NCBI GenBank assembly: GCA_951813395.1
Contig: OX638356.1
Span: forward strand, 537,340-601,339
Origin: Longimicrobiales bacterium
GTDB lineage: Bacteria > Gemmatimonadota > Gemmatimonadetes > Longimicrobiales > Gaopeijiaceae
Length of the DNA: 64,000 bases
Direction: 5' to 3'
This document shows, one piece after another, positions 22,768 through 51,369 of the stretch. Numbering within the stretch: position 1 is the stretch's first letter; each line of letters begins with the position of its first letter. The notes below the pieces were generated by a model that had not been told where the DNA came from, did no database searches, and saw only the letters and a program-made list of their open reading frames with translations. The translations under genes were made by a program, and so were the position numbers.

Positions 22768-23031
22768 TGCATCCGTCCCCTGTTTCTTGCTCTGGATCCC
22801 CGAACTCTGGATCCCCAACTCTGGAACCCTGCTTGCTTCATGATGTTCCCGCCGGTCGGGATGGTGCAAGTGGACGGGTCGGATGTCCGCGTCGGCGGCG
22901 GCCATTCGTGGCCCGTCCCATTCCACCATGTAGGTGCCCCGGCACCGGCCCCAACTTGGTCGCTCGACGTCGAAGTACCGGTACGTTCCGGTCCCCCGGC
23001 GTTTTCCGGCACCCCGAAACCACGCACGCGG

Positions 23032-24192
23032 ATGACCCCCGGACCACGGCAGCGAGTGACCTGGCGCCACGACGCGGGATACAAGCTCTTCCTATCGAGC
23101 CCCCTGGTGGTCGAGGAGATCCTCCGCGACCGTTTTCCGACGTGGGCCCGCGCGCTCGACTTTTCGACACTCGAGAAGCTCTCGCCAGAGTTCGTTGGCG
23201 ACGACCTGGTGCAGCGGCACGCCGACATCCTGTGGAAGATCCGTTTCGGCCAGGAACCCTGGCCCTACCTCCTTTTCCAGGCGGAAGCGCAGTCCTCGCC
23301 TAACCGACTCATGGCGATGCGTACTGCGGAGTACCGGCTGCGTGCCTTCCAGGAGATGGTCAGGGGGGGACACGTCGGCCCCAATGGGGAACTGCCTCCG
23401 GGTCTGGAGTTGGTGCTCTACAACGGCTCCGCTCGTTGGAAGGCGCCCTGTGACCTCGCCAGCCTCATCGCGCCCGGCCTGCCCGCGTCCGTGACTGCCG
23501 GCACCACTCCCGAGGCGCGGCAGGCATTTGGCCTCCACACCGAAGAACACTATCATCTAATCGAGTTGCGGGGTATCGATCCGGCTGACCTCCCGCCGGA
23601 CAGGTGGTTGACCTGGCTGGTCCGGGTCGAGCGGGCGCGGTGGTCGGGGCGGTTGCCGGACGCGGTGGCACTGGGCGAAGCGATTCGTAGGTCGGGAGAC
23701 GAGTACATCCGGCAGACCTTCAGGAATCTCTACGCGGCGTTGGGGTGGCTCGTGGGGATGCCCGAGCAGGTACTGGAGAGCGCGGAGTTTTTCGGGGAGG
23801 AAGGAATGATCAGGACCGAAGAGACGTTGATGGCGGAGAGCGTGCGGCAGATGAAGGAAGAATGGCGGCGCGCGGCCATTGAGGAGGGTTGGCGAGAGGG
23901 TGAGCAGAAGGGCTTGGAGAAGGGCTTGGAGAAGGGCTTGCAGAGGGGCTTGCAGAGGGGCTTGCAGAGGGGCTTGCAGAGGGGCCTGCAGAGGGGCCTG
24001 CAAAAGGGTATTCGACGGCAACGGGCTCTGGTCCTGGGCCAGGCGAGGCTCAAGTTCGGCTCGGAGACTGCGGCCGAACTCCAGTCGGTTCTCGAAAGCC
24101 TCTCAGAATCGAAACGCATCGAGAAGGTGGCCGAGGCGATCATCGAATGTTCGGTGGCCGGGGAGTTCATCCGCCGCGCCCGGAGGGCGTAG
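23032..24192 (+). CDS. Rpn family PD-(D/E)XK nuclease/putative transposase
   Basis: 386 aa. The N-terminal half is an Rpn/YhgA-like nuclease domain: HDAGYKLFLSSPLVVEEIL, then catalytic residues Asp65 (RHADILWK), Glu85 and Gln87 (FQAEAQSS), and LYNG. Rpn proteins are DNA endonucleases that stimulate RecA-independent recombination. The C-terminal half has a charged helix interrupted by eight Gly-Leu-x-x repeats (294-325) coded by a 12-bp tandem repeat, then a DUF4351-like tail (GQARLKFGSETAAELQSVLE). No clear ribosome site before ATG 23032. Not flanked by inverted repeats, so not itself shown to be mobile. Confidence 0.83.
   Translation: MTPGPRQRVTWRHDAGYKLFLSSPLVVEEILRDRFPTWARALDFSTLEKLSPEFVGDDLVQRHADILWKIRFGQEPWPYLLFQAEAQSSPNRLMAMRTAEYRLRAFQEMVRGGHVGPNGELPPGLELVLYNGSARWKAPCDLASLIAPGLPASVTAGTTPEARQAFGLHTEEHYHLIELRGIDPADLPPDRWLTWLVRVERARWSGRLPDAVALGEAIRRSGDEYIRQTFRNLYAALGWLVGMPEQVLESAEFFGEEGMIRTEETLMAESVRQMKEEWRRAAIEEGWREGEQKGLEKGLEKGLQRGLQRGLQRGLQRGLQRGLQKGIRRQRALVLGQARLKFGSETAAELQSVLESLSESKRIEKVAEAIIECSVAGEFIRRARRA
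23911..24006 (+). repeat. 12-bp tandem repeat within the Rpn gene, 8 units
   Basis: Eight consecutive 12-bp units: two of GGCTTGGAGAAG, four of GGCTTGCAGAGG, then GGCCTGCAGAGG and GGCCTGCAAAAG. Each encodes Gly-Leu-(Glu/Gln)-(Lys/Arg). Units are whole codons, so copy-number change would keep the frame. Confidence 0.95.
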
Positions 24193-27766: not shown

Positions 27767-28486
27767 GTGGGGCGCGCGGGCCAGCTGCGGGTGCTCAGCG
27801 ACGAGCTGGTGGGGTGCCGCCGGTGTCCGCGCCTCGTGGCTTGGCGGGAGAAGGTCTCGCGGGAGAAGCGGGCGGCGTACCGTGATGACGACTACTGGGG
27901 GAAACCGGTTCCCGGGTTCGGCGACCCGAAGGCGTCGGTGATGGTGGTCGGGCTCGCCCCGGCGGCGCACGGGGCCAACCGGACCGGGCGCATGTTCACC
28001 GGCGACCGCGCGGGGGACTGGCTGTATCGCGCGATGCACAAGGCCGGATTCGCCAACCAGGCGCTGAGCCGGGAGCGGGCCGACGGACTCGCGCTCACGG
28101 GGGCGTACGTGACGGCCGGTGTGCGGTGCGCGCCGCCTGGCAACCGGCCCACGACCCGGGAACGGGACCGCTGCGCCGGGTTTCTGCACCGCGAAGTCGA
28201 TATCCTGTGGGGCCGGCTTCACACCTTTGTGGCCCTGGGCGGCTTCGCCTACGCCGTCGTCCTGAAGACGCTGGCCGCGAGGGGTGTGGAGATACCCCGT
28301 CCGCGCCCGCGCTTCTCACACGGGGTCGAGGTGGACCTGGGTGCCGTGACCGTGCTGGCGTCCTATCATCCCAGTCAGCAGAATACGTTCACCGGGACGC
28401 TGACGGAGCCCATGTTCGACACAGTGTGGACGCGGGCGGCGGAGCGTGTGGCGGCTGCCACAAGGAGGGATCATGAAGCGACGTGA
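27767..28486 (+). CDS. udgB: Type-5 uracil-DNA glycosylase (UdgB)
   Basis: 239 aa. Excises uracil and other deaminated bases from DNA. Family signs: N-terminal iron-sulfur cysteines CRRC with two more in VRCAPPGNRP...RDRC, motif 1 GLAPAAHGANRTGRMFTGD (with Ala where family 1 has catalytic Asp, as type 5 has), and HPSQQNT near the C-terminus. Length fits the family. GTG start 27767. Its last 14 bases overlap the start of the M19-like gene in another frame. Confidence 0.92.
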   Translation: MGRAGQLRVLSDELVGCRRCPRLVAWREKVSREKRAAYRDDDYWGKPVPGFGDPKASVMVVGLAPAAHGANRTGRMFTGDRAGDWLYRAMHKAGFANQALSRERADGLALTGAYVTAGVRCAPPGNRPTTRERDRCAGFLHREVDILWGRLHTFVALGGFAYAVVLKTLAARGVEIPRPRPRFSHGVEVDLGAVTVLASYHPSQQNTFTGTLTEPMFDTVWTRAAERVAAATRRDHEAT

Positions 28487-29588
28487 CTTCATGAAGGGAT
28501 TGGCCATGGCGGGAGCGGCGTCGGGCTTTGCGGGCGCCGCCGCGCAGGCCTCACCGGGCCGTGCCACCCGCCGGAGCCCCTCCGCGCCGGCCAGTCCGCT
28601 CACCCAGGACGACATCGTGGTGGAGGGGCTCTTCGCGGGCGCCATGCGGCTGTCCCACCTGCGCGGCATGCAGGAGGGCGGCGTACACTGCGGGGTGGCG
28701 GGAGGTCCTTCCAACATGGCGAGCTTCGCGGCGCTGCTCCGCTTCTTCGACGAATACGCGGACGAAGTCGTCCTGGCCAAATCGGTCGCCGAGATCCGGG
28801 CGGCCCACGCGCGCGGAGTCATCTCCAACGTCTTCTGCTGGCAGTCGGCCACGGTGCTTGGCGACTCGTTCAATTCACCGATCGGCTCGTCGGCTACGGC
28901 GCTGCGCGCCTTCTACGAGGTAGGCCTCCGCCAGGTCGGAATTTGCTACAACGTCGCGAACGCGTTCGGGTCCGGCTGTCTGGAGCCCGAGGGGCCGCTG
29001 ACGCGGGCCGGCCAGCGGCTGGTAGAGGAGATGCACTCGCTGGGAATCATCCTGGACGTGGGCGGCCACACCGGCGAGCAGACGACGCTCGACGCCATCG
29101 CGATCTCGGACGGCGTGCCGGTTGTCTGCAGCCATACGAACGTCGCCGCCATCGCCGACAACTACCGCTGCATCAGCGACCGGGTCATCGAAGCGATCGC
29201 GGGCACGGGGGGCGTGATCGGGCTCACGGCGGTCAACGACTTCCACGTGCGGGGACGGGGCGACACCGGGGTCACGCCACACGTGGGCATCGAAGAGCAT
29301 GTCGACCAGTACGACTACATCAGGAACCGCGTGGGCGTGGACCACGTCGGCCTGGGCACCGATTTCGTGGACGGGATGGCGATTCCCTACGGCGGCGGGA
29401 TCAACGCCGAGATCATTACTCCCGACATGGTCAGCGAACCGTGGCGATTCGTCCGCGGCTTCGAGAGCATCGCCGAGCTGCCGAACCTGATCGACGGACT
29501 GCGACGGCGGGGATGGACGGACGAAGAAGTCCGCAAGGCAATGGGAGCCAACTGGCTCCGGGTTTACCAGCAGGTCTGGGGAGGTTGA
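28473..29588 (+). CDS. Tat-exported M19 membrane dipeptidase-like protein
   Basis: 371 aa. Tat-type signal (MKRRDFMKGLAMAGAA). Peptidase M19 renal-dipeptidase fold: GGHTG (His199), SHTN (His221), NYRCISD and HVGLGTDF (Asp297). The family's N-terminal metal motif HxD is not seen: the corresponding segment reads VVEGLFAGAMRLS, and the bridging Glu region reads FCWQSA. So the site may bind one metal or none, and dipeptidase activity is uncertain. AAGGAGG 7 bases before ATG 28473. Three bases before the CocE gene. Confidence 0.82.
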   Translation: MKRRDFMKGLAMAGAASGFAGAAAQASPGRATRRSPSAPASPLTQDDIVVEGLFAGAMRLSHLRGMQEGGVHCGVAGGPSNMASFAALLRFFDEYADEVVLAKSVAEIRAAHARGVISNVFCWQSATVLGDSFNSPIGSSATALRAFYEVGLRQVGICYNVANAFGSGCLEPEGPLTRAGQRLVEEMHSLGIILDVGGHTGEQTTLDAIAISDGVPVVCSHTNVAAIADNYRCISDRVIEAIAGTGGVIGLTAVNDFHVRGRGDTGVTPHVGIEEHVDQYDYIRNRVGVDHVGLGTDFVDGMAIPYGGGINAEIITPDMVSEPWRFVRGFESIAELPNLIDGLRRRGWTDEEVRKAMGANWLRVYQQVWGG

Positions 29589-34002: not shown

Positions 34003-35385
34003 TTTCCTATGAAACCTATCGGTCTTGGATCAAGTGTAACCCATGATACAGGAACGGGTTGTGGTATTGGCGACCTCTGAGAGCAGATTCACGCCGCGGC
34101 TGCAGCTTCCACCGTGTATCCGAGCTTGTGGAGTTGGCGCATGTGATAGCGGCGGCGGCGCTCCTTGTCGCGCCGGAGGAAGAAATCGTCGCCCAGATCT
34201 TCGTGCGACGCACCCGTCGAGAGCATGTGCCAGAGTGCCACCAGAATGGCGTGTTGCACGACCGAGATGGCCTTTCGGGGGCCGCCTCGAGCCTTATGGC
34301 GATGGTAGAGCGCCGAGTAATAGCTGCCCCGGGTCCGTGCCGCCGACCACGCCACCTGTCCAAGCGTCGCGCGCAGCCAGGCATTGCCCTTGCCGGTGGA
34401 CACGGACTTGCGCTTTCCGGCGCTCTCGTGGTTGCCCGGACAGACCCGGGCCCAGGAAGCCAGGTGCCCGGCTGTCGGGAAGCACGTCATGTCCGGCCCG
34501 ATCTCGGCCAGAATCGTCTGGGCGGCACGCTGCGCGATACCCGGCATGCTCTCGATGATGTCAACAGCCCGTGAAAAAGGGCGCGTACGCTCCTCGATGC
34601 GGGCGTCGAGTTCGTCGATGTGCTGCGACAGCTCGTCGATCAGCCGGAGATGCCGGCCCAGCATGAAGCGGTAGTGTTCCGTCATCCGGCCGGCGGTAGC
34701 TTCGGCCAGCTCCTTGCGCTTCTTCTTCAGCGACCCCTGTGCCAGCCGGGCGAGCGCTTCCGGGGCTTCGACGCCTGCCGCCAGAGCATCCAGGATCCCC
34801 CGCCCCGTCTTCCCCATGATGTCCGTCACGACCGAGCCCAGCTTGATGTTGGCCATCTCGAGCGTCTTCGCCACCCGGTTGATCTGGCGGCTCCGCTCGC
34901 CGATCAGCGACTTTCGCAGACGGGTCAGGTCTCGGAGATCGCGGATCTCCGGCGGCGGAACGAAGCTCCCTCTGAGCAGGCCGCACTCCAGCAGCCGCGC
35001 GACCCACTCGCAATCACGGACATCCGTCTTCCTCCCCGGAACGTGCTTGATGTGGCGGGCGTTGACGAGCAACAGCTCGAAGTCGTCCTCAAGCACGACG
35101 TAGACCGGCCTCCAGTACACGCCCGTCGACTCCATCGCCACATGGGTCACGCCGTTGCCCCGAAGCCACTCCCGGAGCGCCTCCAGTCCCGCCAGCGTCG
35201 TCGCGAACGTGCGGACAGCCTTGTGCCGGCCGGCCACCTCCCTGCCCGGCGTACGAACGCACGCCACCACGGTCTTCTTGTGCACGTCGAGGCCCGCGCA
35301 CCGTTCGATCATGACATCCATTCCCGCCTCCTTTCACGGGCTCCAGTGGATCGGGGAGGGCGTTCATGGTTGTCGAATTTCCTAT
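34003..35385 (-). mobile_element. IS110-family insertion sequence (ends approximate)
   Basis: One transposase gene with short non-coding ends. The 8-base TTTCCTAT appears as a direct repeat at 34003-34010 and 35378-35385, a fair candidate for the duplicated core at the junctions; the enclosed length of about 1.38 kb is normal for IS110. IS110 elements lack long inverted repeats, so ends cannot be fixed by eye; the 5' end may lie further out, towards 35520, if a full bridge RNA is present. Confidence 0.6.
34089..35321 (-). CDS. IS110-family transposase (DEDD recombinase)
   Basis: 410 aa, full length. N-terminal RuvC-like DEDD domain: Asp12 (GLDVHKK), Glu64 (AMESTGVYW), Asp100 and Asp103 (GRKTDVRDCEW). 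A coiled middle (about 145-260), then the C-terminal Transposase_20 domain with SMPGIAQRAAQTILAEIG and the catalytic Ser300 in CPGNHESAGK. All catalytic residues are intact, so it could be active. IS110 enzymes are guided by a bridge RNA from the element's non-coding end. GGAGG precedes ATG 35321; ATG 35312 is also possible. Confidence 0.96.
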   Translation of the reverse strand: MDVMIERCAGLDVHKKTVVACVRTPGREVAGRHKAVRTFATTLAGLEALREWLRGNGVTHVAMESTGVYWRPVYVVLEDDFELLLVNARHIKHVPGRKTDVRDCEWVARLLECGLLRGSFVPPPEIRDLRDLTRLRKSLIGERSRQINRVAKTLEMANIKLGSVVTDIMGKTGRGILDALAAGVEAPEALARLAQGSLKKKRKELAEATAGRMTEHYRFMLGRHLRLIDELSQHIDELDARIEERTRPFSRAVDIIESMPGIAQRAAQTILAEIGPDMTCFPTAGHLASWARVCPGNHESAGKRKSVSTGKGNAWLRATLGQVAWSAARTRGSYYSALYHRHKARGGPRKAISVVQHAILVALWHMLSTGASHEDLGDDFFLRRDKERRRRYHMRQLHKLGYTVEAAAAA

Positions 35386-46355: not shown

Positions 46356-47621
46356 CTACACCACGCGTCTCGGGAGCCGCGGATTCATGCTCTGGATGAT
46401 GCGCAGGAAGCCGAGATCTGTTCGCTCAGCGACGGTGTGGGGCAGCACGGCCGGGTGATCCGGCCCGATCAGCGTGGCCACATCGCCGACCTCGACGGTC
46501 TTCTCCGGACCGATGTCGAGGATTGTGTGGGCGGAGTTGACGCCGCCGGCGACCGGGTACAGGCGTCCGTTGATCAGCACTTCGCAGGTCCCGTTCGCTT
46601 CCGATGGGTACCCGTCCGTGCGGCCGATGGGCAGCAGGGCCACCCAGGTGGCCCGGTCGGGCATGAAGGTGCGGTTGAAGCCCGCGCTGTCTCCCGGCTC
46701 GAGGCGCTCCACGCGCACGACCCGCGTTTTCAGGCTGAACACGGGCCTGAGGTCGGCCAAGTCGCTTGCCTCCTGGCCGCCGGGGGGATTCCCGAACAGG
46801 GCATTGCCGGGCCGCACCATGTCGTAATGCGCCTCCGGCAGGTGGAACAGTTCGAAGGTGGGGGCGGCATGTAGCGTGCCAAGGGGCAGGTTCCTCTCCC
46901 GCGCCCAGCCGAGGAGTTCCTCGAAGCGGGCGTGCTGCTCCCGGTCGAAATCGAGGTCGTGGGTGAACATCGTGTAGGTGCCGTTCACGTCGACGGCCTC
47001 GCTTTGGACGAGTTCCTCGATCCAGCGCCGGGCGCGCGTGTAGGGCATCCCCTCGCGGTTCATCCCCGTGTCGATGAAGAGCTGGACGGGAACGGGCCGG
47101 CCGAGCCGTCCGGACACGCTCCTCAGCCGCCCCGGCGCGTCGTCCAGCCAGACCGACGGGAGCACATCATGCCTCGCCATCTCCTCGATCTCGTCCTCGG
47201 ATCCCTCGGCCATGACCACGATCGGCTTGGTGACGCCCTCCGCGCGCATGGCCAGCGCCTCCTCGACGCGCACGGCGGCGAGGCCGCCCACCTCGGACAT
47301 GCTGGCAAGAAGCGGCCCGACGGCGCGGTCGCCCAGCCCATACGCGTTGTTCTTGACGACGGCGAGGATCGGACGCCCGCCCGCCAGCCGCGCGGCCTCG
47401 CGGACGTTGTGGGCCCAGGCTGTGCGGTCGAGTTCGATCCATGGGTCGAAGCGGGTGGGGGAGTAGGTGCGGTCGATTGCGGCGCCGACGCCGGTGGCAG
47501 CACGGACGTCTGCACCACTCGACCGCGGCGAGGAAGCACAGGCGGATGCTGTCGTGAGGCCCAGGGCCGTTCCGGACACCTGGAGAAAGCGGCGGCGGGG
47601 AAGTCGGGGCGCGCGATCCAT
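46356..47621 (-). CDS. Exported alanine-racemase-like PLP protein with altered active site
   Basis: 421 aa. Tat-like/lipoprotein signal (RRRFLQVSGTALGLTTASAC), then the fold-III alanine racemase barrel (about 70-300) and C-terminal beta domain. The PLP lysine is kept (Lys90 in VVKNNAYGLG) as are HAAPT and MVRPGNALFG. The catalytic Tyr in the canonical GYADG motif is replaced: here it reads GRTDG with Arg334. In known racemases this Tyr abstracts the alpha proton from the L-substrate. The protein may act on one hand only, or as a different PLP enzyme. Periplasmic broad-specificity racemases (BsrV type) are the nearest precedent. Start by signal sequence. Confidence 0.82.
   Translation of the reverse strand: MDRAPRLPRRRFLQVSGTALGLTTASACASSPRSSGADVRAATGVGAAIDRTYSPTRFDPWIELDRTAWAHNVREAARLAGGRPILAVVKNNAYGLGDRAVGPLLASMSEVGGLAAVRVEEALAMRAEGVTKPIVVMAEGSEDEIEEMARHDVLPSVWLDDAPGRLRSVSGRLGRPVPVQLFIDTGMNREGMPYTRARRWIEELVQSEAVDVNGTYTMFTHDLDFDREQHARFEELLGWARERNLPLGTLHAAPTFELFHLPEAHYDMVRPGNALFGNPPGGQEASDLADLRPVFSLKTRVVRVERLEPGDSAGFNRTFMPDRATWVALLPIGRTDGYPSEANGTCEVLINGRLYPVAGGVNSAHTILDIGPEKTVEVGDVATLIGPDHPAVLPHTVAERTDLGFLRIIQSMNPRLPRRVV
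47170..47209. repeat. Racemase-internal segment duplicated at 49069-49108
   Basis: 40 bases within the racemase gene (coding EGSEDEIEEMARHD on the minus strand) recur exactly at 49069-49108 on the same plus-strand orientation, in a non-coding stretch 1.9 kb away. Confidence 0.9.
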
Positions 47622-47712
47622 GGGTCCTCCGGGCGTGACGGGCGGTGTGCGGAATGGGGCGAATCTACCGGCCCGTCCGGTGGTGGGCCAGAGATCTGGT
47701 GTCGAGGTGACA

Positions 47713-47742
47713 TCGAACAACGAAAAGATTAGTTTTTATAAT
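47713..47742 (+). promoter_or_regulatory. Promoter before the frameshifted propeller gene
   Basis: TCGAAC (47713-47718; weak -35), 18 bases, then a perfect TATAAT (47737-47742) in a locally AT-rich stretch, 57 bases before ATG 47800. Confidence 0.5.
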
Positions 47743-47799
47743 CGAAGGTCCCTGGATGCCTCACGCTCGACGGAGCGTCAACGGAAGCGACCATAACGG

Positions 47800-49028
47800 A
47801 TGAAAGCACGGACCCCGATACTGATCACGACTGCCCTGGGAAGCGTTCTCGCGTGTGGCGACTCCGCGCCTGGGCCCGCCACCATTGGTGCGCCGGGAAC
47901 TCTGGAAGGTCCGGACGTCATGCTGTCCTACGTGACCGAGGACGTCTACACCATCGGCGCGTACATGGGGGAGGACTGGGAGAGCTTCGGCCTGCTTGGA
48001 GATGTCGGCTTCGATGGAGCGGGCAACGCACATATTCTCGATATGCGCGCGGACCGGATCGTGGTGGTGGACCCGGACGGGGCCTTTGTACGCTTCGTGG
48101 GAGGTCCGGGCGAAGGACCCGGGGAGCTGTATGGTCCCTCGTCGCTGCATGTCGATAGAGACGGCGGATATGTCGTCGGCACCGTTCGCGGCATCGAGCT
48201 TTTCAATCCCCGAGGAGACCACCTGCGCAGAATGCCTGTTGATTTCGGTTCCGGCGGGCCCGGCCTCAACGCGAAGGGATTGCCCGACGGAAGTCTGGTG
48301 TCGACCGTCTTTCGGTTCGATTTGGAGAGGTATCGCGAAGGACTGGAACAGCTGGATCCCCCCGGCCGACCCATCGAGGTCTTCCCGATCGAGCACGGGG
48401 AACCCGAAGTCCTCTACACCGCCTGGGAGCTGCCCGATCCGGAGGACGTAGGGAGGAATGCCAGACGCTCCCTTCGGACGGAATCTCCCGGCTTTCAGCG
48501 GGTCGGGCCTTCGAGCCGGACCTTCACTTCGACGTGATTTCCGACGGGCGCCTGGCGGTGGTCGACTCGATCGGCTACCGGATCAAGCTGGTCTCGCGCG
48601 ACGGCAGCGTGCTGGGCACGGTGGAGCGCCCGATCGCGCCGCTCGCGGTCACCGAAGCGATGAGGGAAGCCGCGCGGGACCGCTATCGCGCCCGCGAAGT
48701 GCCGAGCAACGTCGGCATCTTCCGTATCGAGCGCGAGAGTGTGGACGAAATGAGGTTCGCGGAAGAGATCCCCGTCATCGCCAACATGGCCGTGGACTGG
48801 GAGGACCGGATCTGGGTGGAGCGAACCGGCGCCGATGGAGGCGAGCCGGGCCCCATCGACATCGTGACGCCGGAAGGCGGCTACGTTGGGACGCTGCCCG
48901 CCGACGGAGTCACGATCCCGAGCGCCTTTGGACCCGACGGGCTCATGGCCTATCTCGAAGCCGACGAGGTCGGCATACCGATCGTGCGCGTGATCCGGCT
49001 GGTTTCGCTGCAACCGGAGGGCACCTAA
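47800..49028 (+). pseudogene. Six-bladed beta-propeller lipoprotein broken by a frameshift
   Basis: Lipoprotein signal (SVLAC) and 6-bladed beta-propeller repeats (FGLLGDVGFDGAGNAHILDM, RFVGGPGEGPGELYGPSSL). The first frame stops at 48537. The remainder continues one frame away: SRLSAGRAFEPDLHFDVISDG through VRVIRLVSLQPEG ending 49028, and this is clearly the missing C-terminal half. The switch lies between about 48440 and 48500, consistent with loss of one base. Similar in domain plan to the intact protein at 61990-63198. Either a true pseudogene or a base-call error. Confidence 0.8.
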
Positions 49029-49044: not shown

Positions 49045-49108
49045 CAGGCAGGCGGACCGTCGGGGTCGTGCCTCGCCATCTCCTCGATCTCGTCCTCGGA
49101 TCCCTCGG
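49045..49108. repeat. Mosaic scar of two neighbouring genes
   Basis: Bases 49045-49066 equal 50795-50816 (3' end of the DUF4440 lipoprotein gene) exactly, and 49069-49108 equal 47170-47209 (inside the racemase gene) exactly, with two bases between. Both copies keep the plus-strand orientation of their source. On the minus strand the join reads EEMARHD then PDGPPA. Confidence 0.88.
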
Positions 49109-49221: not shown

Positions 49222-50781
49222 TTGGCAAGCCCGGTCATGAGTTTTCGAGGACGGATCCTCCCCGAACCGGGAACGCCTGCCGGCTACGCCGCGCTCATCG
49301 CCGAGTACGACCTTCCGGTTCCGCCGCCGTCGCGCCTGGCGGCCATCGCGACGCGCCATCATCCCGTTTCCACGCGGGAGTGGCACATGTTCGCACCGAG
49401 TTTCTCCCCCGAGAAGAGCCTTCGAGGCCAACTCGAGTTTGCTGTAAAGTGGGAGGGCGCAAGCCTCGCTGTACTGCGGGCTCTCTTCAGACGTGTCGAG
49501 CCGGCGGAGGTGGTCCGTATGGTGCGCGACAAACCTACAGGAGCGTACACCCGTCGGATCTGGTTCCTGTACGAATGGCTGATGGAGGCGCGACTGGACC
49601 TGCCCGACGCCGGCAAGGTGACGGCCATCCCGGTGTTGAATCCCAAGCTGCAGTTCGCCCCGGAGAGTGGCCCACTGTCGCGACGCCACCGGGTCCGAAA
49701 CAACCTCCCGGGTACGAGGGACTTCTGCCCGATGGTTCGCCGGACGCCCGAACTCGACGGCTACGTGAAGAGGCAACTCGATGTGGAGGCTCGAAGGGTA
49801 ATCGGCCGGACGCCCCCTGACATCGTTCGCCGCGCCGCGGCGTTTCTCCTTCTCGAAGACAGCAAGGCTTCCTTTCAGATCGAAGGAGAGCGTCCACCGC
49901 ACAACCGACAGCTACGCTGGGCCCAGGCGATCTCTGAAGCAGGGCAACGCGGCCTGACTGTCGACGAACTCGCGCGCCTCCAAGAGATGGTGATCGGCGA
50001 CGCGAGGTTTGTCCGACTGGGCCTGCGAACCGAGGGCGGGTGGATTGGCGAACGTGACCGGGCGACCATGGATCCCATTCCGTCGCATGTCAGCGCACGT
50101 CCGGAAGATCTGCCCGACCTCATGCAGGGGCTCGTGGAATACGCTGGCAAGGCTGCGGCGACGCCCGTGGATCCCGTCGTGTCGGCGGCCGCCCTGTCGT
50201 TCGGGTTCGTCTACATACATCCGTTCGAGGACGGGAATGGACGCCTTCACCGCTGGCTGATCCATCATGTGCTGGCCCAGGCGGGCTACAATCCCCCGAA
50301 TCTGGTGTTCCCCGTGAGTGTGCCGATGCTGAGGCGGATCGCGGAATACAGTGAAATCCTCTCAGCCTATTCCTTGCAGGTACTCCCCCTGGTCCAATGG
50401 CGCGTGACGAGGCGGCTCAACGTCGAGGTATTGAACGACACTGGCGACTACTACCGCTTCTTCGACGCTACGGTGCACGCCGAGTTCCTCTACCAGTGTG
50501 TCGAAGAGACGGTGACCCGGGATCTCCCGCGGGAGGTGGCATACCTGGAAGGATACGACGAGTTTTCGCGACGTGTCCAGGAGGAAACCGCGAACATGCC
50601 GGAGAGGACCATCAACCTCCTGGCGCAGTTCCTCCGGCAGAATGAAGGGACGCTGTCCAATAGGGCACGCACCCGCGAGTTCGCGCGCCTGTCACCGGAT
50701 GAAGTGAAGCGGGTGGAGGAGCTGTACAGCCGTTGCTTTCCTACCGACGCGGAGGCCCGACAAAGCCCCGCCCGTCCCTGA
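49222..50781 (+). CDS. Fic-domain protein with internal inhibitory motif
   Basis: 519 aa. Fic proteins transfer AMP or similar groups to protein hydroxyls. The active site is complete: HPFEDGNGRLHR from His333. The self-inhibitory motif (S/T)xxxE(G/N) lies N-terminal to it as SFQIEG (Ser217, Glu221, Gly222), placing it in class II, where the inhibitory helix is in the same protein. N-terminal region (about 1-180) is an uncharacterised extension; a winged-helix-like tail (about 470-510) follows the Fic core. TTG 49222 is chosen because AAAGGAG lies 8-9 bases upstream; ATG 49237 is too far. No antitoxin gene adjoins, as expected for class II. Confidence 0.92.
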   Translation: MASPVMSFRGRILPEPGTPAGYAALIAEYDLPVPPPSRLAAIATRHHPVSTREWHMFAPSFSPEKSLRGQLEFAVKWEGASLAVLRALFRRVEPAEVVRMVRDKPTGAYTRRIWFLYEWLMEARLDLPDAGKVTAIPVLNPKLQFAPESGPLSRRHRVRNNLPGTRDFCPMVRRTPELDGYVKRQLDVEARRVIGRTPPDIVRRAAAFLLLEDSKASFQIEGERPPHNRQLRWAQAISEAGQRGLTVDELARLQEMVIGDARFVRLGLRTEGGWIGERDRATMDPIPSHVSARPEDLPDLMQGLVEYAGKAAATPVDPVVSAAALSFGFVYIHPFEDGNGRLHRWLIHHVLAQAGYNPPNLVFPVSVPMLRRIAEYSEILSAYSLQVLPLVQWRVTRRLNVEVLNDTGDYYRFFDATVHAEFLYQCVEETVTRDLPREVAYLEGYDEFSRRVQEETANMPERTINLLAQFLRQNEGTLSNRARTREFARLSPDEVKRVEELYSRCFPTDAEARQSPARP

Positions 50782-50793
50782 CGACAACCGGCG

Positions 50794-51369
50794 TCAGGCA
50801 GGCGGACCGTCGGGGTGCAGCTCGCACTCGGGCGGCTGAAGCCTGGTCCACGACAGGGCGACGATGGTCCATGACTCGTCGTCGTTCCGGGTTAGCAGGA
50901 GCGCATCGGCCCCGCAGTGGCTCAAGTCGTCCCCGACATAGAAGTCGTACGGTGTCCAGACCATGGCCAGGTCGCCGCTGACGCGCACCTCCGGATCCCA
51001 CATGCGCTCGGTCAGGACTGTCTCGCTTCCTTCCAGCCGCGCAATCAGCTCGTCGCGCGTCGAGGTGGAGCTCGATCGCGTGCCATCGGCCGCCCTCTCA
51101 ACGGAGTGCATCAGCACGTCCGGATGCATGATCTCGCGGAGGATCTCCCCGTCGCCCGCCGCCAACGCGTCGAAGATGCCCTGCACGGCCGCCAGGATGG
51201 CCTCGCGCTCGGCGGAGGTGGGCATGTGGGAGTCCTGCGCGGCAGGGGATGCGCTGGTCTCTGCGGCAGATGGGGCGTCAGGGGTGTTCGCGGTCTCGTT
51301 GCTTGTGGCGGGACCACATGCAGCCAGCATCATGGCGGCCAGACAAACGGACTCGGTGATTCGGCTCAT
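50794..51369 (-). CDS. DUF4440/SnoaL-like lipoprotein
   Basis: 191 aa. Lipoprotein signal (lipobox LAAC), Ser/Thr/Ala-rich linker (about 20-50), then an NTF2-like DUF4440 domain: SAEREAILAAVQGIFDALAAGDGEILREIMHPDVLM, and VRVSGDLAMVWTPYDFYV, DESWTIVALSW. Such domains bind small ligands or catalyse simple chemistry; specific role unknown. GAGGA 7 bases before ATG 51369. Last 22 bases are duplicated in the scar at 49045. Confidence 0.83.
   Translation of the reverse strand: MSRITESVCLAAMMLAACGPATSNETANTPDAPSAAETSASPAAQDSHMPTSAEREAILAAVQGIFDALAAGDGEILREIMHPDVLMHSVERAADGTRSSSTSTRDELIARLEGSETVLTERMWDPEVRVSGDLAMVWTPYDFYVGDDLSHCGADALLLTRNDDESWTIVALSWTRLQPPECELHPDGPPA

Follow-up and report, generated by a model that had tools for sequence, protein, structure and literature searches.

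A predicted exported alanine-racemase-like protein of Gemmatimonadota with phenylalanine at the site of the catalytic tyrosine

The window, a 64,000-nucleotide stretch of a 4.09-Mb single-contig, Gemmatimonadota-like genome, carries on its minus strand an intact open reading frame of 421 codons (47621-46356, ATG start at 47621) encoding a 421-residue protein, P0001. A sequence-only reading of the window had placed the gene at 46356-47621 without giving its strand, and the frame is intact at exactly these coordinates. P0001 scores 140.5 bits against PF01168 (Ala_racemase_N; cut-off 24.1) and 78.4 bits against PF00842 (Ala_racemase_C; cut-off 25), the only two families matched up to an E-value of 1; PF14031, the C-terminal domain of D-threonine aldolase, is absent. 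The NCBI equivalog model TIGR00492 (alr) is passed with 184.6 bits (cut-off 168) and would label the protein alanine racemase. Scores fall below the cut-offs of the NCBI models PRK13340 for broad-spectrum racemase (113.9 vs 434) and NF033131 for VanT serine racemase (191.2 vs 460). An AlphaFold2 model of P0001 has a mean pLDDT of 87.8, with residues 1-51 below 50. Solved alanine racemases lead the Foldseek matches (TM 0.79, query-normalised, to 5irp) and are also closest in VIA-align (4luy, Z 41.4, rmsd 2.3 over 363 aligned residues), at 22-29% identity to solved chains in the structure alignments. BsrV is among the structural matches with Z 37.9 and is not the closest of them.

Features are listed below with P0001 residues and the corresponding sites of Geobacillus alanine racemase (Alr). 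Residue counts refer to 84 aligned rows: 26 of the R clade, which includes P0001, 28 of His type, 4 of Tyr type and 26 canonical Alr, the last being E. coli Alr, one Prevotella protein and 24 proteins encoded in Gemmatimonadota genomes. Identical proteins were merged before counting (110 loci gave 85 distinct proteins). Rows dropped were L058 and L059, whose called proteins were too short, L104, a His-type row with N runs, and L118, a wrong short frame; gene calling had overlooked the racemase gene of L136 and L023.

46356..47621, minus strand: alanine-racemase-like gene with predicted export signal (P0001, 421 aa); intact reading frame, PF01168 and PF00842 over cut-off, dN/dS 0.06-0.12
47622..47799, no strand: intergenic region towards a divergent beta-propeller gene; the propeller is also upstream in L009, L010, L012-L016 and L029, not in L008 or L011
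47538..47621, minus strand: predicted Tat-type signal with lipobox-type Cys28 (MDRAPRLPRRRF...TASAC); lipobox and twin-Arg patterns, within the residues (1-51) of pLDDT below 50
47352..47354, minus strand: Lys90, PLP Schiff-base lysine (Lys39; E. coli Lys34), in VVKNNAYGLG; Lys in 84/84 rows
47055..47057, minus strand: Arg189, substrate-carboxylate arginine (Arg136); Arg in 84/84 rows
46968..46970, minus strand: Met218, at the site of His166, which tunes Tyr265; Met in 26/26 R rows, His in 26/26 canonical
46959..46961, minus strand: His221, in the R clade only (26/26); Glu in 28/28 His-type and 4/4 Tyr-type rows, Ser, Gly or Arg in the 26 canonical
46812..46814, minus strand: Arg270, pyridine-nitrogen arginine (Arg219); Arg in 84/84 rows
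46677..46679, minus strand: Phe315, at the site of catalytic Tyr265 (E. coli Tyr255); Phe in 26/26 R rows, Tyr in 28/28 His-type, 4/4 Tyr-type and 26/26 canonical
46620..46622, minus strand: Arg334 in GRTDG, at the inner-entryway Tyr284 (E. coli Tyr274); Arg in 26/26 R rows, His in 28/28 His-type, Tyr in 4/4 Tyr-type and 26/26 canonical
46527..46538, minus strand: Asn362-Ser363-Ala364-His365, in place of Cys/Ser-Met312-Asp313-x; His365 in 58/58 exported-family rows and 0/26 canonical
46404..46406, minus strand: Leu406, at the phosphate/entryway Tyr354; Leu in 26/26 R rows, Tyr in 28/28 His-type, 4/4 Tyr-type and 20/26 canonical

The sequence-only reading had observed that the GYADG motif is GRTDG in P0001, with arginine at residue 334. 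This arginine is not a chance substitution, because it is present in all 26 distinct clade members examined, and it does define a clade (support 100/100 in the tree described below). The same reading took the GYADG tyrosine to be the base for the L-enantiomer, which is wrong. In an alignment including E. coli Alr, residues 334 and 315 line up with E. coli Tyr274 and Tyr255, respectively. Tyr255 (Geobacillus Tyr265) is reported as the racemase base for L-alanine, and Tyr274 is described as lying at the innermost end of the substrate entryway (PMC5025676). Tyr274 is nearly dispensable for racemisation: the Y274F change in E. coli lowers kcat from 55 to 40 per second (1.4-fold) with a 1.7-fold effect on Km, and lets cystathionine, which is larger, into the pocket (PMC5025676). 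At the site of Tyr265, the Geobacillus Y265F change reduces D-Ala racemisation 60,000-fold (cited in PMC5025676). Counting without an alignment gives the same assignment, as the residue 19 positions before the GxxDG site is tyrosine in 26/26 canonical, 28/28 His-type and 4/4 Tyr-type rows and phenylalanine in 26/26 R rows. With phenylalanine at the Tyr265 site, the catalytic tyrosine is therefore missing as had been claimed, though it was lost at residue 315 and was not changed to arginine at 334. A tyrosine supplied from a neighbouring position, which that reading had named as counting against it, is found in the His-type sister clade, where Tyr315 is kept, and not in the R clade.

We rejected residue 334 as the catalytic tyrosine, since E. 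coli numbering gives Tyr274 and not Tyr255. That Arg334 itself makes the enzyme one-sided, as it would if the GYADG tyrosine were the base, is scarcely credible. The arginine is real and clade-defining, but a kcat of 40 vs 55 per second in Y274F and a base at Tyr255 (PMC5025676) argue against such a role, as do His-type relatives that have no tyrosine at 334 and yet retain the real base. The conserved GYADG motif is easily taken for the catalytic site, so racemase calls, and losses, inferred from GYADG should be checked at Tyr265.

Other active-site positions are partly kept. The PLP lysine is intact, as the earlier reading stated, and Lys39, Tyr43, Arg136, His200 and Arg219 are retained in 26/26 R rows, with Ser204 as Ser or Thr. 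To call the fold motifs intact was nonetheless too generous. His166 is replaced by Met218, Asn203 by Pro254, Met312 by Ser363, Asp313 by Ala364 and Tyr354 by Leu406 in the R clade, and all eight scored residues of the substrate entryway are changed. These eight are Tyr265', Tyr284', Tyr354 and Ala169, together with Arg290', Arg309', Ile352 and Asp170 (PMC3146814, PMC3245724); they are described as invariant in five Gram-positive Alr of solved structure (PMC3146814). The inner layer in S. pneumoniae and S. aureus is given as Tyr265', Tyr284', Tyr354 and an alanine, with numbering that varies slightly by species (PMC3146814, PMC3245724). The inner-layer Ala169 is Asp222 in R rows, and the middle layer reads Ser340 for Arg290, Gly360 for Arg309, Gly404 for Ile352 (Ser in one row) and Leu, Ile or Met at residue 223 for Asp170. 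None of the eight is kept in any of the 26 R rows, while His-type rows keep 2 to 4 and Tyr-type rows 3; as a control, canonical rows keep 5 to 8 (all 8 in 15/26, 5 to 7 in the other 11).

Compared with bacterial Alr of E. coli and Geobacillus, P0001 thus has both domains, the fold, the Schiff-base lysine, Arg219, Arg136 and Tyr43 in common. It differs in its predicted export, in Phe at Tyr265, Arg at Tyr284, Leu at Tyr354 and Met at His166, in Ser-Ala-His for Met-Asp-x, and in a host genome that has a separate canonical Alr. Judged by its residues, P0001 lacks a defining feature of an alanine racemase, the catalytic Tyr265, though the annotation models accept it.

The N-terminus of P0001 combines a twin-Arg motif (RRRF) with a lipobox-type TASAC, which bears out the Tat/lipoprotein signal proposed earlier. 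Scored with a PROSITE-type pattern, a lipobox occurs in 26/26 distinct R-clade proteins (P0001 included), 0/29 His-type and 0/4 Tyr-type proteins. A twin-Arg-like motif is present in 25/25 R-clade proteins (P0001 not counted), 28/29 His-type and 3/4 Tyr-type proteins, the fourth Tyr-type protein having N runs across this region. These patterns suggest that P0001 is exported via Tat and probably lipid-anchored. P0001, whose export is predicted from its signal pattern, would in this resemble the broad-spectrum racemases (BsrV, P. putida Alr), which are periplasmic fold-III PLP proteins (PMC6034422, PMC7890096).

A profile search of 395 Gemmatimonadota genomes found the exported family in 50 (best E 1.6e-101 or lower), of which 22 carry the R type, 25 the His type and 3 the Tyr type, with one R-type genome adding a His-type gene; 5 further genomes gave only matches of the strength seen for ordinary Alr (1e-60 to 1e-64). 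In the genus of the window the search covered 23 genomes; the R type is present in 9, of which 7 have a canonical match as well. The R-type gene is the sole PF00842 gene found in G001 and G015, which are drafts of 160 and 240 contigs. R-type and His-type genes occur together in two other genomes, G032 and G034, and the window genome has a separate canonical Alr (L001) with tyrosine at both sites. A contig scan with single-protein patterns returned only close relatives, at 22 loci with 70% identity or more, from metagenome-assembled genomes titled Gemmatimonadetes/Gemmatimonadota, Gemmatimonadales and Candidatus Palauibacter and, at two loci, from one isolate titled Deltaproteobacteria. The Palauibacterales are described from marine sediments, sponges and corals in PMC10469786, the main text of which does not contain the word racemase. 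No relative at 60% identity or more was found in a plasmid collection, either with P0001 (371 records) or with a His-type query (428 records).

A careful tree was built from 70 rows with the trait columns, 315 included, removed; 13 of the 26 R rows were kept and L119 was dropped, and an earlier tree had retained 315. Besides the R clade, the His type (93/84), R plus His (100/98) and the Tyr type (100/100) were recovered. The split between the exported family and canonical Alr is weak (87/28), and E. coli Alr forms a long branch. We place the loss of Tyr265 on the stem of the R clade because His-type, Tyr-type and canonical rows all keep this residue. The His-type sister clade of Gemmatimonadota, at about 40-49% identity, has in common with P0001 the Tat-type signal, His365 and the loss of His166 and Met312-Asp313; it differs in keeping Tyr265 and Tyr354, in having His at 284 and in having no lipobox. 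Its proteins could, from their sequences, still be two-base racemases. The four Tyr-type proteins (L105-L108, family f9) keep both catalytic Tyr265 and Tyr284, have TANH for SMD, and could be ordinary exported racemases. Among the open-licence papers searched, no report of a natural Alr homologue lacking Tyr265 was found. The R clade is, by its predicted signal and residues, a conserved exported variant of the Alr fold without the catalytic tyrosine.

The dN/dS ratio of the racemase-like gene was 0.06-0.12 in 14 comparisons (NG86), a level of purifying selection at which the gene is not a decaying one. When the window genome (family f1) is set against three f7-family genomes, identity amounts to 65-66% for RecA and 70% for ribosomal protein L2, at dS values of 1.0-1.5; canonical Alr, compared with that of one of the f7 genomes, is 43.5% identical. 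The R-type protein is 84-86% identical between the same families with a dS of about 0.6, and the dS of its gene to two genomes within the genus of the window is 0.44-0.47. The R-type gene is thus far closer than the host genomes are, which points to horizontal transfer; it seems to have moved between the two bacterial families.

Flanking genes differ between window-like and Palauibacter-like R-type loci. Near the former lie genes for a beta-propeller, S15 and S9 peptidases, a FabH-like protein, a DUF5117 metalloprotease and a beta-lactamase-like protein; near the latter are an SDF symporter, two M29 proteins, a Tat-type class-V aminotransferase, an amino-acid permease, BKACE, 3HCDH and aconitase X. 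The class-V aminotransferase, convergent and downstream in 8 of 9 Palauibacter-like loci (L018-L024 and L028, not L017), has a twin-Arg N-terminus of its own and is probably a second exported PLP protein. When 20 His- or Tyr-type stretches were compared with 7 (of 23) R-type stretches, three neighbour families were shared: FabH-like (L126 / L010, L013), DUF5117 metalloprotease (L131, L133 / L013) and beta-lactamase-like (L121, L129 / L027). None of the three adjoins the racemase-like gene in all its loci, and several neighbours recur within the Tyr-type stretches. The sequence-only reading had tentatively linked the gene to D-amino-acid use through an adjacent dipeptidase and ammonia-lyase. 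The M19 dipeptidase is at 28473-29588, about 17 kb away, no ammonia-lyase was found among 20 other window proteins and the S9 peptidase scanned, and the variation of neighbours between R-type groups leaves that link unsupported. A function drawn from neighbours was rejected, since the R-type groups differ and their neighbours are largely not in common with relatives.

Several features of the surrounding DNA were recorded. The divergent gene for the 6-bladed beta-propeller (47800-49028) carries a frameshift that breaks it in two in the window, and it forms a single open reading frame in L009, L010 and L012. A perfect 22-nt direct repeat (49045-49066 and 50795-50816) flanks a Fic-domain gene (49237-50781); gene calling in L010 and L012 gave no Fic gene in the interval from the propeller to a SnoaL-like region, and the Fic segment therefore has the look of an insertion. 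Within the racemase-like gene, a 43-nt piece (47167-47209) recurs with 42/43 identity at 49066-49108, between genes beside the Fic gene, and its 40-base core has just two genomic copies within 3 mismatches. The window also holds an IS110-family transposase (34089-35321) and a YhgA-like putative transposase (22840-24192).

The second catalytic residue is lost and the entrance rebuilt, yet the gene is conserved and apparently transferred, and on these grounds the R clade probably carries out a different reaction on amino acids. Our preferred, still tentative, reading is that P0001 is a Tat-exported and probably lipid-anchored PLP enzyme of the Alr fold that is no longer a two-base Lys/Tyr racemase and would act from one side via Lys90. 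The one-sided or new PLP activity suggested by the sequence-only reading survives as a conclusion, with its basis moved from Arg334 to Phe315. Evidence for it includes the tyrosine at 315 in 58/58 non-R rows against Phe315 with Arg334 in 26/26 R rows, the change of all eight entryway residues, the monophyly of the R clade, purifying selection, the separate canonical Alr, the lipobox pattern and the predicted fold. PLP held on Lys90 would receive an amino acid through a wider and more charged entrance. Arg334' from the partner subunit would line the inner gate and possibly grip a distal acidic group. In docked E. coli Y274F, the middle-layer Arg290 could meet a distal carboxylate (PMC5025676). 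Given a charged entrance with Arg334', and Ser340 for Arg290, it is reasonable to guess that the substrate bears an acidic distal group. With no acid/base at the Tyr265 site, proton transfer would be possible from the Lys90 face (D side) only. A lipoprotein signal would keep the enzyme in the periplasm, probably held at the membrane, where scavenged amino acids arrive. Against this reading stand the retention of Arg219 (Arg270 in P0001), which is described as biasing PLP chemistry towards racemisation (PMC3245724), the lack of any conserved neighbour pointing to a pathway, and the two R-type draft genomes in which no other PF00842 gene was found.

Retention of Arg219 and its reported preference (PMC3245724) would also suit an enzyme that is still an amino-acid racemase, with a substrate other than alanine and with His365', His221 or Arg334' replacing Tyr265 as second base. 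Lys39 and Arg136 are kept as well, His365 is present in all exported rows, Tyr265-bearing ones included, and His221 appears exactly where Tyr265 is lost. Residue 334 is, however, an entryway position and not that of the base. Arginine moreover rarely acts as a base, and we consider such a racemase unlikely, if worth serious attention. A non-catalytic lipoprotein of the periplasm, binding PLP or some ligand as carrier, sensor or scavenger, would explain the joint loss of Tyr265, His166, Met312, Asp313 and Tyr354, the restriction of the lipobox to the R clade and the lack of conserved metabolic neighbours. Purifying selection with Lys90 and the Tyr43, Arg219 and Ser204 (Ser or Thr) sites kept in 26/26 R rows argues against it and makes this quite an unlikely explanation. 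An ordinary alanine racemase in which the substitutions are tolerated is what the annotation would say, from the TIGR00492 score, both Pfam domains and the same fold, and it would fit G001 and G015. Nonetheless, the 60,000-fold loss in Geobacillus Y265F (cited in PMC5025676), the change of 8/8 entryway residues and the second, canonical match in 7/9 carriers of the window's genus, the exceptions being the two drafts, leave it improbable.

For the preferred one-sided enzyme, the likeliest chemistry would be retro-aldol cleavage or elimination on a beta-substituted D-amino acid, perhaps as a D-amino-acid lyase, and either His221 or His365' would assist the cleavage. Geobacillus Alr Y265A is an aldolase for D-beta-hydroxy amino acids (PMC6411801, PMC4401734), and on this precedent the best single guess is a D-specific cleavage from one side. 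In the Geobacillus Y265A and Y265F enzymes Tyr265 is removed with Lys39 and Arg219 kept, and the R clade presents a natural Tyr265-to-Phe change; those enzymes differ as laboratory point mutants of an ordinary Alr, in which His166 and the remaining entryway residues are intact. Against a lyase count the loss in the R clade of His166, which serves the engineered aldolase as base, the absence of PF14031 from P0001, and the Phe at 265, which leaves less room than Ala and does not open the pocket as in Y265A. His365 is not lyase-specific, as it is also present in relatives that keep Tyr265.

A fuller evolutionary proposal, which we regard as doubtful, is that a Tat-exported and then lipid-anchored alanine racemase lost Tyr265 and became a D-specific, metal-free periplasmic C-C or C-X lyase whose gene spread between Gemmatimonadota families. 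Surviving relatives form the series Tyr/Tyr, Tyr/His and Phe/Arg at sites 265/284. We know of no such lyase among proteins with an Ala_racemase_C domain. If the proposal is right, a gene annotated as alanine racemase would be a natural experiment in a PLP racemase changing its reaction type, with intermediates in the same phylum. It makes testable whether evolution used the removal of Tyr265 as enzyme design did, a step that Seebeck and Hilvert reportedly made on alanine racemase in the laboratory.

Fold-III D-threonine aldolase and D-serine dehydratase (4v15, 3anu) resemble P0001 in fold type and, by residue counting, in a histidine two residues after the carboxylate-binding residue; they differ in the C-terminal domain PF14031 and, in 4v15, a metal site. 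The backbone NH that binds the substrate carboxylate is that of Met312' in Alr (PMC3245724) and of Asp321 in a modelled complex of D-threonine aldolase, in which His323 lies two further on; by counting, His365 has the same spacing. His365 also lines up with the histidine of the aldolase xxEHG motif (NDEHG) in hhalign, a weak match with a probability of 19.7, and the shared position is a lead only. His221 was rejected as a counterpart of the D-threonine aldolase base, as the Alcaligenes base His193 is six residues after Tyr187 and His221 three after the equivalent residue. The window genome separately encodes a fold-III D-threonine-aldolase-like protein (L003, about 2,498,100-2,499,100), for which 4v15 is the closest solved chain.
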